DNA from: an uncultured Nitrospirales bacterium
GTDB lineage: Bacteria; Nitrospirota; Nitrospiria; Nitrospirales; UBA8639
Direction of reading: 5' to 3'
Length of the DNA stretch: 64,000 nt
Assembly: GCA_958295805.1 (NCBI GenBank)
Contig: OY282373.1
Location: 467,001 to 531,000, forward strand
In this document: in pieces, positions 25,160-63,335 of the stretch
Numbering within the stretch: the stretch's first letter is position 1
Layout: every line of letters starts with the position of its first letter
Translations under genes and position numbers: made by a program
The notes under the pieces: generated by a model
What the model was told of the DNA's origin: nothing
Databases searched by the model: none
Seen by the model: only the letters and a program-made list of their open reading frames with translations

Positions 25160-26644
25160 ATGACCTCCTCCCGCGTCGCATCGTTTCAGCCGCTTGCCCT
25201 GGAGGGCGAGATTCTTCAACAACGAGCTTGGCGGATGCCGGACCTGGTGGTCTACCAGCATGGGCCTGATGAATGGTGGGTGGCGCCTCTTGATGAAGAT
25301 CTGCCCGTAGTCCGGCTGAACCGAATGGGCGCCTCGCTTCTTGGGGCCATGGACGGCCGGCTTTCGATTCAGGCGCTCCTCAATCAATTCGGCAAATGGA
25401 TCTGCGGTCCGAATCAGGAAACCGGCCGGTGGTTTCTGGAACGGTGGTCCTTGCCGCGCTATTCGTTGTGTTATTTCGGGACGGACCCGCCCAGTGGTCA
25501 CAACGTCAACGCCAAATGGGACCTGCTGTTGCAAAAGGTTCGTGAACACTGGCATGAAAACGTGACGGTCGAAAGTGAAACCCACCTCACGGCGTTTCAT
25601 CATCAAGGGATTCAACACCATCACGGCCATTTTGAGATCGTCGAAACGACCGTCTCCCATCTCTTGCGAGAACCCTGTGAGGCGCTGAACGGGTTTTCGT
25701 ATGGTCAATTATTGGCGAAAACCTTCAGGCAATTGGGATGGTGGAGTCCGAAACCTCGGCGTATCGTTGAGGTGGGCGCCGGCTTAGGCTATCTGTCTCA
25801 GGAAATGGCCAAGGAACTCTCACCCCTGGAACGCCGCGGCGTGGAGTATTTCTTCTTGGATCTTACCCGTCCCTTTCTTCATTCACAATTAACGTTAGCC
25901 GCTCACGCCGGCTGGGACGCGCGCGCCGTGAACGCGAACGCGGAGCGACTGCCGTTCGCCGATGCCACCGTGGACTTGGTCATTGACAATGAAAACCTGG
26001 CGGATATGACGCCCACCCGCTTGTCCAAGGAAGAATTGGACGCGCGCGTGGGCAAGACGCCCGAGCATCAGCAGTGTCTGGATTTAATTCACACACTCCG
26101 TTTGAATCTGGATGCGCCCTACCCGGACGACGCGATCGTGAATTCCGGGGCGATGCACTTTTTGATGGAACTGTGGCGGGTTCTCAGACCCGGCGGGCGA
26201 GCGTTACTCGTCGAATTCGGCATCGACGCGGGCTGGCCGGACCCCGTTCGGCTTCCCGGTCATACGGAATATGAAGTGCAGTTTTCCCATCTGCGCCACG
26301 TGGCCCAATGGCTGGGGTTTCGGGAACAGTATTGCGCGCTGCCCCAACTGCTCTCGATTCGACGGGATACGCAAGTCCTCTGCACCGGTGCCGCGTATGC
26401 CATCCGACGGTTGCAGGAAGCAGAGGGAAAAACGTTTGCCGTGCGGGCGTATACTGAATCGGAGTTACAACGCACGCTCGGGGAGACGCTCGCCAGATTC
26501 ACCGGCCTGCATTATCACCACGTCCTTGACCCAGCCTGGTTCGGCTTGTGGGACTTTAAGGCCTTGATCCTGGAAAAACCCGGCGGCATGCCCCGCCCCG
26601 CCTATAAAGAATCCCAGGGTTTCCGTTGGTATAGTCAGCGGTAA
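25160..26644 (+). CDS. PqqD-like domain + SAM-dependent methyltransferase fusion
   Basis: 494 residues. The N-terminal region (about residues 45-80, VVRLNRMGASLLGAMDGRLSI) resembles PqqD-like peptide-recognition domains. The middle carries a class I methyltransferase: IVEVGAGLGYLSQEMAKEL (SAM-binding motif I), AERLPFADATVDLVIDNEN (motifs II-III) and ELWRVLRPGGRALLVEFG (motif IV-V region). The C-terminal 120 residues are not recognised. PqqD-like domains bind ribosomal peptide precursors or metabolites; with the coupled heme-oxygenase-like enzyme this suggests a small modification pathway. No precursor peptide gene is seen nearby. Confidence 0.75.
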   Translation: MTSSRVASFQPLALEGEILQQRAWRMPDLVVYQHGPDEWWVAPLDEDLPVVRLNRMGASLLGAMDGRLSIQALLNQFGKWICGPNQETGRWFLERWSLPRYSLCYFGTDPPSGHNVNAKWDLLLQKVREHWHENVTVESETHLTAFHHQGIQHHHGHFEIVETTVSHLLREPCEALNGFSYGQLLAKTFRQLGWWSPKPRRIVEVGAGLGYLSQEMAKELSPLERRGVEYFFLDLTRPFLHSQLTLAAHAGWDARAVNANAERLPFADATVDLVIDNENLADMTPTRLSKEELDARVGKTPEHQQCLDLIHTLRLNLDAPYPDDAIVNSGAMHFLMELWRVLRPGGRALLVEFGIDAGWPDPVRLPGHTEYEVQFSHLRHVAQWLGFREQYCALPQLLSIRRDTQVLCTGAAYAIRRLQEAEGKTFAVRAYTESELQRTLGETLARFTGLHYHHVLDPAWFGLWDFKALILEKPGGMPRPAYKESQGFRWYSQR

Positions 26645-26816
26645 GTCAGGATTTGCTTTCCCTTGAGGGGGAGAATAAACAGACTGTTCTCAGCTTTCAG
26701 GTGACGGCGAAAAGCCTGGACGAATGGATTTTCCTTTTCTACCTGAGATCGCCTGAGAATCAGCGACCACACCGATGTATCAACGACGAGATTCACGACC
26801 ACGGCGATCAGCCGTG
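26635..26816 (-). pseudogene. truncated VapC (PIN domain) remnant
   Basis: From the GTG at 26816 the frame gives MNLVVDTSVWSLILRRSQ, then FVQAFRRHLKAENSLFILPL, a good PIN-domain start with the first catalytic Asp. After about 45 residues similarity to VapC is lost and the frame stops at residue 60, within the 3' end of the methyltransferase gene. About half of the usual 130 residues, including the other acidic residues, are missing. The loss point lies at CCCTTGAGGGGGAG, the core of a repeat seen elsewhere in the window. Its start overlaps the vapB stop. Confidence 0.75.
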
Positions 26817-26992
26817 TAATCCCAATCCTTGCGAAACTCAAGCGTCCCGAACGCACGTAGGACGTTACGCTGCTGCCGCCGTTGGATAAATTCTTCCAAG
26901 GCTTTCGTCACCGTCTCTTTTTTCGTGCGGAGTCCGGCTACCTGAACGGCTTTCTTCAACAACCGGTCATCAATGGCTAAATTCGTCGCCAT
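26780..26992 (-). CDS. VapB-type antitoxin without functional toxin
   Basis: 70 residues from the ATG at 26992, which has GGAGG 7-8 nt upstream. MATNLAIDDRLLKKAVQVAG followed by KKETVTKALEEFIQRR is a ribbon-helix-helix VapB of the DUF2191 type; FRKDWDYTADRR is the usual toxin-binding tail. The partner gene overlapping its 3' end is truncated, so this may be an orphan antitoxin, possibly still repressing its own promoter. Confidence 0.85.
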   Translation of the reverse strand: MATNLAIDDRLLKKAVQVAGLRTKKETVTKALEEFIQRRQQRNVLRAFGTLEFRKDWDYTADRRGRESRR

Positions 26993-58658: not shown

Positions 58659-60296
58659 ATGGCGAGAGAACGACGAAAACAAGCCCGCCCCGACGCCGCA
58701 GCGAAGCCAACGCGCACGGGCCGACGTGATGGACAGACGGGTGCCGTTGCAGGCTGTGAAGCCGAACTCTGGCAGATGGCGGATGCCCTCCGCGGTTCGA
58801 TGGACGCCGCGGAATACAAACACGTCGTGCTCGGCCTCATTTTCCTGAAATACATCTCCGACGCCTTTGAAGAGACGCACGCCCGCCTCGCACGGCAGCA
58901 GGCCGAAGGTGCCGACCCGGAGGACCCGGATGAGTACCGCGCCACAAACGTGTTCTGGGTCCCGCCCGAGGCACGATGGACGCATCTCAAGGCTCAAGCC
59001 AGACAATCCACCATCGGCCGGTTTGTTGATGACGCGATGACCGGAATTGAGCGCGACAATCCGGCGATCAAGGACGTCTTACCCAAAGATTACGCCCGCC
59101 CGGCACTTGACAAACAGCGGCTCGGGCAATTGATTGACCTCATCAGCCACGTCAGGGTGGGCGACGAGGACGCTCGGTCCAAGGACGTGCTCGGCCGCGT
59201 GTATGAGTATTTCCTGTCGCAATTCGCCAGCGCAGAAGGCAAAAAAGGCGGCCAATTCTACACCCCGCGCTGCGTCGTCAAGTTGCTGGTCGAGATGCTG
59301 GAACCCTACCGGGGACGGGTGTACGACCCCTGCTGCGGGTCGGCCGGCATGTTCGTCCAGTCGGTCGAATTCATCAACGCGCACGCCACCGGCAACGGCA
59401 ATGGTGGAAAAACGCCCGGAGGCCCCAAGAAAGACATCTCGATTTACGGTCAGGAATCAAATCACACCACGTGGCGGCTGGCGAAAATGAACTTGGCCAT
59501 TCGCGGCATCGACGGCCAGATCGCCCAAGGCGACAGCTTCCTTAACGACCGCCATCCCGACCTCAAAGCCGACTTCATTCTCGCCAATCCGCCGTTCAAC
59601 GTCTCCGACTGGAGCGGCGAGCGGCTCCTCAACGACAAACGTTGGCGATACGGTGTGCCGCCCAAGGGCAACGCCAACTTTGCCTGGGTGCAGCACATCG
59701 TCCATCATCTGGCGCCCATCGGCGCTGCCGGCTTCGTGCTCGCCAACGGCTCCATGTCGTCGAACCAATCGAACGAAGGCGGTATTCGCAAGAACCTGAT
59801 TGAGGCGAACTTGGTGGACTGCATGGTGGCGTTGCCCGGACAACTCTTCTATTCGACCCAGATTCCCGCCTGCCTGTGGTTTCTCGCCCGCAACCGACGA
59901 CGCGACACGTTCCGTGACCGTCGCGGCGAAATCCTGTTCATTGACGCCCGCAAACTGGGCCGCATGGTGGACCGCACCCACCGGGAACTGACCGATGAAG
60001 ACGTCACCCGCGTCGCCAAGACCTACCACGCCTGGCGTGGCGAGGCCGGCGCCGGCGAATACGCGGACGTGCCTGGCTTCTGCAAAAGCGCGACGCTGGA
60101 GGAAGTCCGCAAACACGACCACGTCCTTACCCCGGGCCGCTACGTCGGCGCCGAAGCGCAGAAGGACGACGGCGAACCGTTCGAGGAAAAAATGAAGCGG
60201 CTGGTCGCCCAACTGCACGCGCAACAAGCCGACAGCGCCAAACTCGACGCGGCCATCAAGGAAAACCTGAACCGGCTTGGATTTGGAGAAGATTGA
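58659..60296 (+). CDS. hsdM: type I restriction-modification system methyltransferase subunit
   Basis: 545 residues. The helical HsdM_N domain ([36 protein letters not shown]) is followed by the N6-adenine methylase: [32 protein letters not shown] (SAM motif I) and [13 protein letters not shown] (NPPF catalytic motif IV). It modifies the target together with HsdS. AAGGA precedes the ATG. A higA-like gene and a HEPN-like gene separate it from hsdS. The hsdR gene is not in the window. Confidence 0.95.
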
Positions 60297-60811: not shown

Positions 60812-61240
60812 ATGAGCCTCGATTATTCCTCATTGGCAAGTGCGGTTACTCAACTACAAAAAAGCTTTGACTACCTTCACTCCGACGTGGCGCGGGAAGA
60901 CGTTGGTCTGCGCGAGCAGTTTCGGGCCGCGACCATTCAAGCGTTTGAATGTAGCTACGAATTGGCCATCAAAATGATCCAGAGACAACTCGCTCAAATC
61001 GTTGCCAACCCCGACGAGTTGTACAAAATCAGTTTCGCCGACCTGATGCGCAAGGCGACAGACGCCGGCATCATTCGCGATGCCCCACAATATATGCGTT
61101 ACCGGGAATTACGGAATAAAACTGTTCATACCTATGATGCGGACCGAGCAGAAACGACAGTGGCTTCGATGAATGATTTTCTGCACGACCTGCGTTTCCT
61201 GCTGAAGGAACTCGAAAGGCGCAATCGTGCAACCGATTGA
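60812..61240 (+). CDS. HEPN-like nucleotidyltransferase substrate-binding protein
   Basis: 142 residues, all-helical, of the HI0074/HEPN group. LASAVTQLQKSFDYL, then REQFRAATIQAFECSYELAIKMIQR and YRELRNKTVHTYD, where RxxxxH (RNKTVH) is the HEPN RNase motif. In MNT-HEPN toxin-antitoxin pairs this is the RNase toxin, silenced by AMP transfer from the MNT protein. Its stop overlaps the next frame, whose N-terminus is exactly such an MNT nucleotidyltransferase, but fused to HsdS. Confidence 0.88.
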   Translation: MSLDYSSLASAVTQLQKSFDYLHSDVAREDVGLREQFRAATIQAFECSYELAIKMIQRQLAQIVANPDELYKISFADLMRKATDAGIIRDAPQYMRYRELRNKTVHTYDADRAETTVASMNDFLHDLRFLLKELERRNRATD

Positions 61241-63335
61241 CATCAGCCCCGGCGACCTGAAGACGGTTCAGCATATTTTGCAGGAACACGTGCCGGAGTT
61301 GGAGGTCCGTGCCTTCGGCTCGCGCGTGTCTTGGACCGCCCGGGAGACTTCCGATCTCGACCTCGCGCTGATGACCACGGAGCCGTTGGACCTCCTGTGC
61401 GTGGCAGAGATGAGAGAAGCCTTCGATGAGTCCGATCTACCCTTCCGCGTCGACCTCGTGGATTGGGCCTCGACGTCTGAGAACTTTCGGAAGGTGATTG
61501 AACGCGAGTATGTGACGATAGCAGAAGGAAAAGAGCGGAATGCGATCGGTACTTGGCCGAACACGACCATTGGCGATTGCGCTTTGCTGGTGCGGGAGAC
61601 AATTTCACCTTCCGATGGAGAAGACGTACCTTACATCGGTCTTGAACACATCGGAGAAAACACTCTATCACTTCTGGGACATGGTACGGCAAGTGACGTC
61701 ACCAGTGTGAAAGCCTGCTTTCAGTCTGGCGATATTCTTTTCGGGAAACTCCGGCCTTATTTTCGCAAAGTTGTTCGAGCGCCTTTCGATGGGATTTGCT
61801 CAACGGATATTTGGGTTGTTCGTGCAAAAGAGAGAGCGGATCAAGGATTTCTCTACTATTGCATGGCATCCCAACCCTTTGTTGATTTTGCGACTTTGGG
61901 TTCCGAAGGCACACGGATGCCGAGAGCAAAATGGGAATATGTATCGCGATACGAAATTTCACTTCCGCCACTCCCCGAACAACGCGCCATCGCCCACGTC
62001 CTTGGCACCCTGGACGACAAGATCGAAGCAAACCGCCGCATGAACCAAACACTGGAGGCCATGGCGCAGGCGCTCTTCAAATCCTGGTTCATCGACTTCG
62101 ACCCCGTCCACGCCAAAGCCACCCTCAACAACCATCACTCCCCCCTTGAGGGGGAGTCGGCAAGACAAGGGCGAAGCCCGCAGTCGCGCCGGTGGGGGGC
62201 TATCCGACGCGGCTACACCCAACGCACCCTGACCACCGCCCAAACCCTCCGCTGCAACCGAACCGACGCCGAAGGGCTCCTTTGGCACTACCTGCGCAAC
62301 AACCAACTCGACGGCCACCGCTTCCGCCGCCAGCACCCCATCGGCCCCTATATCGTCGATTTCGCCTGCCTGGCCCGAAAAATCCTGATCGAACTCGACG
62401 GCAGCCAGCACGCGAAACGGCAAGACGACGACAAAAAACGAGACGCCTTCTTGCGCGCACGGGGCTACCGCGTCCTGCGCTTCTGGAACAACGAAGTCTT
62501 CGAGAACTGCTTCGGGGTTCTGGAGCGCGTATACGAAGCCGTCACGGAGACCCCCCCACCGGAGCCGCCTGCGCCTGACGGCTTGACGGCTCCGACTCCC
62601 CCTCAAGGGGGGAGTGATTGGACAGTCGAACGCGCCCGCGCCTATCTCGACAGCATGGACCCAGAAATCGCCGCCATGTTCCCCAACCGATTCGTGGACT
62701 CGGAATTGGGCAAGATACCGGAAGGGTGGGAAGTAGGATGTTTTGGTGATGTTGTTGACCAGATCTCCGACAAGGAAAATCCGTTCACTTCACCTGATAC
62801 TCTCTATCATCACTTCAGTATACCGGCTTTCGATGAAGACCAATGGCCCAAAACAGAGCATGGGGAGGACATTAAGAGCCAGAAATTGCGAGTGTTTCCC
62901 GGAGTCATTCTGTTATCGAAACTCAACCCGGAAATTGATCGAGTCTGGCTTGTGGACGTCCAGCAAGGGGATCAAGCCGTGTGTTCAACAGAATTTTTGG
63001 TTCTTCGCTCTCGGTCGCCATACGGGAATGCTTTTTCCTATTGTCTTGCACGCTTTCCTGTCTTCCGACGGGCACTATGTTCGCTCGTGACCGGAACTTC
63101 AAAGAGCCATCAGCGTGCACACGCCAATGCCGTCTTGGCACTACCCATCATTCTATCTCCCAAGTCCTTGGCTGAAGCATTCGAAATGGCAACCACGATC
63201 TGTTTGCAAAAGGTTCAGGTGAATCGCCGTGAATCCCGCACCCTCGCCGCCCTGCGGGACGTGTTGCTCCCAAAGTTAGTTTCCGACAAAATTCGGATGT
63301 CCAGAATTTCCAAGGAGAATAATGATGCCAAGTAG
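61227..63335 (+). CDS. hsdS: fusion of MNT nucleotidyltransferase, HsdS halves and a DUF559 nuclease
   Basis: 702 residues, GTG start. Residues 1-98 are an MNT nucleotidyltransferase: FGSRVSWTARETSDLDLAL (G31-S32, D43, D45) and RVDLVDW (D76). From about 103 (TIGDCALL) begins HsdS: TRD1 to about 250, then the conserved helix LPEQRAIAHVLGTLDDKIEANRRMNQTLEAMAQALFKSWFIDFDP. Residues about 303-464 are an inserted segment with a DUF559 endonuclease (AEGLLWHYLR, HRFRRQ, YIVDFAC, ILIELDGSQHA, YRVLRFWNNEV). HsdS resumes at VDSELGKIPEGWEV with TRD2 and ends normally. The frame is open throughout. Such a triple fusion may be cleaved, or may be a functional multi-enzyme; either is inference. Confidence 0.85.
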   Translation: MQPIDISPGDLKTVQHILQEHVPELEVRAFGSRVSWTARETSDLDLALMTTEPLDLLCVAEMREAFDESDLPFRVDLVDWASTSENFRKVIEREYVTIAEGKERNAIGTWPNTTIGDCALLVRETISPSDGEDVPYIGLEHIGENTLSLLGHGTASDVTSVKACFQSGDILFGKLRPYFRKVVRAPFDGICSTDIWVVRAKERADQGFLYYCMASQPFVDFATLGSEGTRMPRAKWEYVSRYEISLPPLPEQRAIAHVLGTLDDKIEANRRMNQTLEAMAQALFKSWFIDFDPVHAKATLNNHHSPLEGESARQGRSPQSRRWGAIRRGYTQRTLTTAQTLRCNRTDAEGLLWHYLRNNQLDGHRFRRQHPIGPYIVDFACLARKILIELDGSQHAKRQDDDKKRDAFLRARGYRVLRFWNNEVFENCFGVLERVYEAVTETPPPEPPAPDGLTAPTPPQGGSDWTVERARAYLDSMDPEIAAMFPNRFVDSELGKIPEGWEVGCFGDVVDQISDKENPFTSPDTLYHHFSIPAFDEDQWPKTEHGEDIKSQKLRVFPGVILLSKLNPEIDRVWLVDVQQGDQAVCSTEFLVLRSRSPYGNAFSYCLARFPVFRRALCSLVTGTSKSHQRAHANAVLALPIILSPKSLAEAFEMATTICLQKVQVNRRESRTLAALRDVLLPKLVSDKIRMSRISKENNDAK
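62134..62618 (+). mobile_element. candidate mobile DUF559 unit bounded by inverted repeats, inside hsdS
   Basis: Perfect 27-bp inverted repeats lie at 62134-62160 and 62592-62618 (core CCCCCCTTGAGGGGGAG). A second, inner inverted repeat of 11 bp (CCGGTGGGGGG at 62189-62199 and its complement at 62552-62562) is nested. Between them is little more than a DUF559 (Vsr/PD-(D/E)XK-superfamily) nuclease. The whole block is in frame with hsdS and sits in the linker between the two target recognition halves. It resembles a homing unit using REP-like ends. Confidence 0.7.

Follow-up and report, generated by a model that had tools for sequence, protein, structure and literature searches.

A DUF559 nuclease gene between inverted REP-type palindromes, inserted in frame in hsdS of a Nitrospirales bacterium, is a probable mobile element

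The window analyzed here is a 64,000-nucleotide stretch of the genome of an uncultured Nitrospirales bacterium, and it contains an hsd locus in which the gene for the specificity subunit HsdS is interrupted, without loss of the reading frame, by a segment encoding a nuclease domain. The features of the locus are as follows.

58659 to 60296, + strand: hsdM of the same system, with N6_Mtase and HsdM_N profile matches
61227 to 63335, + strand: host ORF, a single uninterrupted frame of 702 amino acids that spans the insert and encodes an MNT-type nucleotidyltransferase, HsdS half 1, the inserted element, and HsdS half 2
61611 to 62057, + strand: HsdS specificity domain 1 (Methylase_S), amino acids 129 to 277, by profile match
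62134 to 62618, + strand: whole inserted element, 485 bp as delimited by its conserved ends
62134 to 62199, + strand: left terminal unit, with the palindrome ATCACTCCCCCCTTGAGGGGGAGTCGG, then an inner GC-rich hairpin, and then CCGGTGGGGGG
62229 to 62543, + strand: DUF559 (PF04480) Vsr-like nuclease domain, amino acids 335 to 439, E value 1.1e-38
62552 to 62618, + strand: right terminal unit, inverted, CCCCCCACCGG ... CCGACTCCCCCTCAAGGGGGGAGTGAT, kept in seven copies in the same genome
62619 to 63335, + strand: HsdS half 2, in which the same frame is taken up again, beginning DWTVERARAYLDSMD...

The MNT part of the host ORF is MntA-antitoxin-like (NCBIfam, 6e-9). Positions 60812 to 61526 hold a HepT-like/NTase-substrate-binding gene (PF08780) followed by the MNT nucleotidyltransferase that is fused to the HsdS N terminus, and the MNT-HsdS fusion was also read in three further loci (L103, L104, and L105).

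The earlier note on this DNA, made from its letters alone, had described a DUF559 unit lying in frame in the linker between the two HsdS halves and bounded by perfect 27-bp inverted repeats with a nested 11-bp pair, and each of these points was borne out. The 702-amino-acid ORF is open throughout; positions 62134 to 62160 are the inverse complement of positions 62592 to 62618 at 27 of 27 nucleotides, with 431 nucleotides between them; and the 11-bp pair (CCGGTGGGGGG at 62189 to 62199 and CCCCCCACCGG at 62552 to 62562) sits within a 29-nucleotide pair matching at 79% (62186 to 62214 and 62537 to 62565). A chance inverted repeat was rejected, as the 27/27 arms and their genome-wide recurrence are far above chance. 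The tips of the element are ATCACTCCCCCC and GGGGGGAGTGAT, and the palindrome bears no GTAG tag at its foot; by inspection, the window unit has no CGTC (or TGTC/CCTC) tag beside an 8- to 9-bp stem. The element codes for DUF559 alone, and a profile search found no Y1 (HUH) transposase in it.

The invariant DUF559 residues are all present in the nuclease domain, namely, E19, D48, E59 and D61 (E-x-D), and H65. Its predicted model (pLDDT 89) matches N. gonorrhoeae NGO0050 (3hrl), the catalytic domain of I-Bth0305I (Foldseek E value, 4.7e-5), and Vsr (E value, 0.015), and a profile match to the homing endonuclease I-Bth0305I (3r3p) was also obtained (0.0018), with profile and fold alike pointing to an endonuclease of a homing family. 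The value of dN is well below that of dS between copies, which indicates purifying selection on the DUF559 domain. In Caulobacter, the DUF559 protein VsrA (CCNA_02930) is blamed for DNA damage in cells without ScmA methylation, and it is described as a repair enzyme whose cellular role is tied to cytosine methylation (PMC12907096). The window nuclease shares its domain family with VsrA and differs from it in that VsrA is described as a repair enzyme; this cellular role counts against the mobile-element reading given below, and the damage attributed to VsrA suggests that DUF559 is an active nuclease family.

The catalytic fold is shared with I-Bth0305I and Vsr, and profile similarity is shared with I-Bth0305I, but the window copy is without an intron or intein, is bounded by REP-type palindromes, and recurs at unrelated sites. 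The earlier note had called the unit an intein-like or homing element, and what stands of this is an inserted nuclease unit with an I-Bth0305I fold, bounded by genomic palindromes; the likeness to an intein falls away because there is no splicing domain and the ends also occur alone. Strict homing, in which an allele lacking the insert is cut at one set position, is at most a possibility for the window element. That the insert is or was protein-spliced, as an intein or the remnant of one, is exceedingly improbable. The in-frame site in a DNA-modifying enzyme would suit an intein, and in another genome (G216) a DUF559 domain lies inside an apparent intein, recognized by eye, of a DNA methyltransferase (L115, 2834 to 3133), which may be a further mobile role of this nuclease. 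However, neither Pfam nor NCBIfam profiles detect a HINT domain in the 702-amino-acid protein, and the insert is edged by DNA palindromes, which are also found by themselves elsewhere in the genome; the intein was rejected on these grounds.

The core of the palindrome, CCCTTGAGGGGGAG, is found exactly at 26660, 62143, and 62596 (minus strand), and with up to two mismatches it has eight matches in the window versus 0.54 expected in shuffles. Pattern, DNA, and profile searches put the palindrome family at about 20 copies genome-wide, with the core at about 25 places in the 2.90-Mb genome and the 66-nucleotide left unit at 21, and the core copies stand mostly as inverted pairs or tandem arrays. 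The copy that had been placed near 26660 at vapC does, as claimed, coincide with the 3' end of a minus-strand ORF (26635 to 26856) that is short and, as recognized by eye, VapC-like; the repeat core CTTTCCCTTGAGGGGGAG there falls within 26635 to 26673.

Alignment of the copies reveals two distinct ends, the left consisting of the palindrome and GGCAAGACAAGGGCGAAGCCCGC...GCCGGTGGGGGG and the right consisting of CCCCCCACCG..GCCGCCGGCGCCGGACGGCTTG.CGG.. and the inverse palindrome. The HsdS element has both ends, and so do six shorter copies (255 to 292 bp), of which four (267 to 292 bp) lie at one locus (L038) and two (255 bp) at another (L033), all retaining the two differing ends. The similarity of the L038 interiors to both ends of the nuclease gene beats 300 of 300 dinucleotide shuffles each (z, 3.9 to 6.9), and therefore the short copies are read as deletion derivatives, in the fashion of MITEs; the four L038 copies in particular clearly hold vestiges of the nuclease gene. 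The L033 interiors resemble it weakly (5 and 9 of 300 shuffles). As with MITEs and other transposable elements, the copies are dispersed, share the same terminal inverted repeats, and include gene-less ones, in which both ends and gene remnants are kept; the difference is that there is no recognized transposase here. Neither the own-genome copies nor the junctions in the transpeptidase and HsdM genes described below show an obvious target-site duplication, and the insert-free homologs are diverged (58 to 91% identical).

Within the genus, 11 of 14 genomes have the 66-nucleotide left unit; of 34 other genomes of the family, none has it. Across the genus, REP-only copies are commoner than full copies, and REP arrays free of the nuclease exist (L035 and L357); both observations favor a reading in which REPs are moved by a RAYT or another transposase, with DUF559 as cargo or as a homing nuclease that has settled among them. 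However, the sole Y1/RAYT-like gene of the genome (2633184 to 2633519; L180, G000:C1) is embedded in its own array of GTAGGG...GCATGAGATGCGGCC-type repeats, a family different from the DUF559 ends, so a RAYT is an unlikely mover, and RAYT-driven REPs were rejected as an explanation.

Comparison of hsdS homologs with and without the segment, as the earlier note had proposed, recovered full, ends-only, and insert-free forms within the genus. The nuclease and its ends occupy the hsdS site in G000, G197, G173, and G248:C96; the ends alone are found there in G185 and G248:C84; and G245 and G249 are insert-free, with another linker. Plasmid HsdS sequences yielded insert-free relatives only, at <60% identity. 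An HsdS of this kind, complete with the element, is also encoded in three Candidatus Binatota genomes, which may reflect transfer of the entire hsdS gene. In addition, G147, G138, and G140 have DUF559 of a separate second lineage, with another repeat family, at this linker of HsdS. Fusions of HsdS and DUF559 without flanking repeats, which had been named as evidence against an inserted element, were not encountered, as the HsdS-DUF559 loci examined carry REP-type repeats, perfect or near perfect in the window clade and weaker in the other clade. Judged from these sequence comparisons, insertion of a DUF559-REP element into hsdS is well supported.

HsdS is not the only host of such elements. 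In-frame elements were also found in HsdM (L106, L110, L111, L112, L114, and L358), in HsdR (L360), in an XrtA-type amidotransferase/asparagine synthase (AsnB; L357), and in an L,D-transpeptidase (L372), and in the last two the insert splits the host domain profile in two. Insert-free relatives are available for HsdM (L181 to L190, 81 to 91% identical), the amidotransferase (L434 and others, 86%), and the L,D-transpeptidase (L417 to L426, 58 to 77%), and in two further species the transpeptidase site holds repeat units without the nuclease (L428 and L430). Frame was judged from flank homology rather than ORF length, and in the testable hsd, amidotransferase, and transpeptidase cases the host gene continues on the same strand and in the same frame as the nuclease; L111 and L112 are without an insert-free homolog in the set, L107 begins at a contig end, which makes its upstream frame number unsuitable for comparison, and antisense matches were found at L109, L121, and L395. 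At L357 (G593), two adjacent amidotransferase genes have repeat-derived coding arrays at the same loop, one of them with DUF559.

Type I restriction genes make up the majority of the intragenic copies in the sample, for which loci with long open frames were deliberately selected, so that the intragenic share is no population estimate. In the tree, the HsdS and HsdM labels need at least three changes each, and a clade of seven rows with support of 100/95 (L105, L106, L107, L108, L110, L114, and L360) comprises hsd genes only (HsdS, HsdM, and HsdR), which leaves room for a restriction-related function. DUF559 might then have been recruited as a nuclease or repair module of type I restriction, with the repeats as incidental linkers, and the strand and frame shared with the hsd gene and the purifying selection on the domain would be in keeping with such a fusion. 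This alternative is nevertheless very unlikely, because repeats alone stand at the same hsdS site in G185 and G248:C84, equivalent units lie in genes that have no part in restriction, and related genomes contain standalone DUF559 copies with up to 94% protein identity.

Among bacteria more widely, 104 of the 245 genomes from the phylum contain DUF559, as do, at an E value of ≤1e-15, 78 of 299 genomes sampled around a Lysobacter genome, and phage records gave few matches (2). Association with repeats was assessed by local alignment of 150-bp flanks, with an inverted repeat score of ≥14 counted. Over three samples, inverted REP-type hairpins surround 109 of 172 DUF559 genes (a total in which three loci, L211/L103, L213/L104, and L216/L117, are counted twice, and which becomes 109 of 198 with a Mesorhizobium-type clade that was excluded after its lack of repeats was seen) versus 4 of 330 neighboring genes. 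The numbers are 41 of 59 versus 2 of 55 in Nitrospirota, 39 of 60 versus 0 of 38 in Pseudomonadota, and 29 of 53 versus 2 of 237 in a named mixed set with the Mesorhizobium-type clade left out, and shifted-window controls are in accord with this excess. The pairing of DUF559 with inverted REP-type ends thus extends over bacterial phyla. That clade (L252 to L290, mostly Mesorhizobium), with inverted repeats at 0 of 26 DUF559 genes, may represent a form that has settled and no longer moves. Clear inverted repeats are absent around one-third or more of the DUF559 genes, and hence the domain also exists without such ends. The objection that the repeats might not be tied to DUF559 elsewhere, which the earlier note had raised against its own reading, fails on these counts.

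The repeats around DUF559 genes follow a common plan, with a C/G-rich hairpin such as CCCTCTCCC-loop-GGGAGAGGG, at times another hairpin, and a sequence like GGGTGAGGG. The more alike two nucleases are, the more alike their repeats tend to be (Mantel rho, 0.28; 0 of 999 permutations), a pattern that joint inheritance could produce as well. Both the excess of flanked DUF559 genes over neighbors and this correlation argue against DUF559 as passive cargo, and hitchhiking on, or nesting among, REPs moved by another enzyme is considered unlikely, if still a more serious alternative than the restriction fusion. In Escherichia coli, the DUF559 gene ycjD (L457 and L462) is flanked by sapF and fabI, and REP-type repeats lie downstream of it; no clean empty site was seen in the strains read that lack ycjD, because an efflux gene cluster follows sapF in them. 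The Azospirillum megaplasmids that share a DUF559 locus all have the gene, and none is insert-free.

The segment in hsdS is thus probably a copy, inserted there, of a mobile element in which a small Vsr/I-Bth0305I-like DUF559 gene lies between inverted REP-type units. We infer, as a further step, that the DUF559 nuclease itself may move the element. The nuclease would be translated as part of HsdS and would act on the palindromic ends, probably when these are folded into hairpins or cruciforms, cutting at or near them and/or the target DNA; repair would copy the element, or short derivatives of it, into the cut target, and the element would persist in genes where its frame fits and the loop that receives it is tolerant, the HsdS linker being one example.

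Rickettsia palindromic elements, likened here by description, also place palindromic DNA in frame within protein genes, but they are short and are not known to carry a nuclease, which the present element has. The resemblance to REP/RAYT (GTAG) systems lies in the inverted pairs of small palindromes, the flanked nuclease gene, and the short non-autonomous copies, whereas the enzyme here is a Vsr-like DUF559 protein, RAYTs being HUH/Y1 transposases, and no GTAG tag is present. CGTC-tagged REPs are likewise palindromes in head-to-head pairs and partly intragenic, they are reported to have no dedicated transposase, and RPE-4 and RPE-6 have been equated with CGTC families (PMC3733652). The units described here are not CGTC tagged, and a link between DUF559 and CGTC REPs is therefore an idea only.

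In the open-access literature searched, no description of the DUF559-REP association was found. The element is read as a REP element with a partner enzyme, and it may represent a categorically new element class. The broader proposal, to which we give somewhat less than even weight, is that DUF559 proteins are the dedicated mobilizing enzymes of a large orphan REP superfamily across phyla, of the Vsr/homing type rather than HUH or DDE, which can lie in frame in host proteins and be expressed from them. REP-type palindromes are common in bacterial genomes, and many families are without a known moving enzyme. With DUF559 between repeats in about two-thirds of the sample outside the Mesorhizobium-type clade, and with gene-less derivatives, the nuclease is a testable candidate for such a mover in the families encountered here, and a large class of bacterial repeats that lack an explanation may have DUF559 as their unrecognized partner and perhaps as the enzyme that moves them. 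If true, this would account for annotated bacterial proteins with DUF559 and proline-rich, repeat-derived tails.
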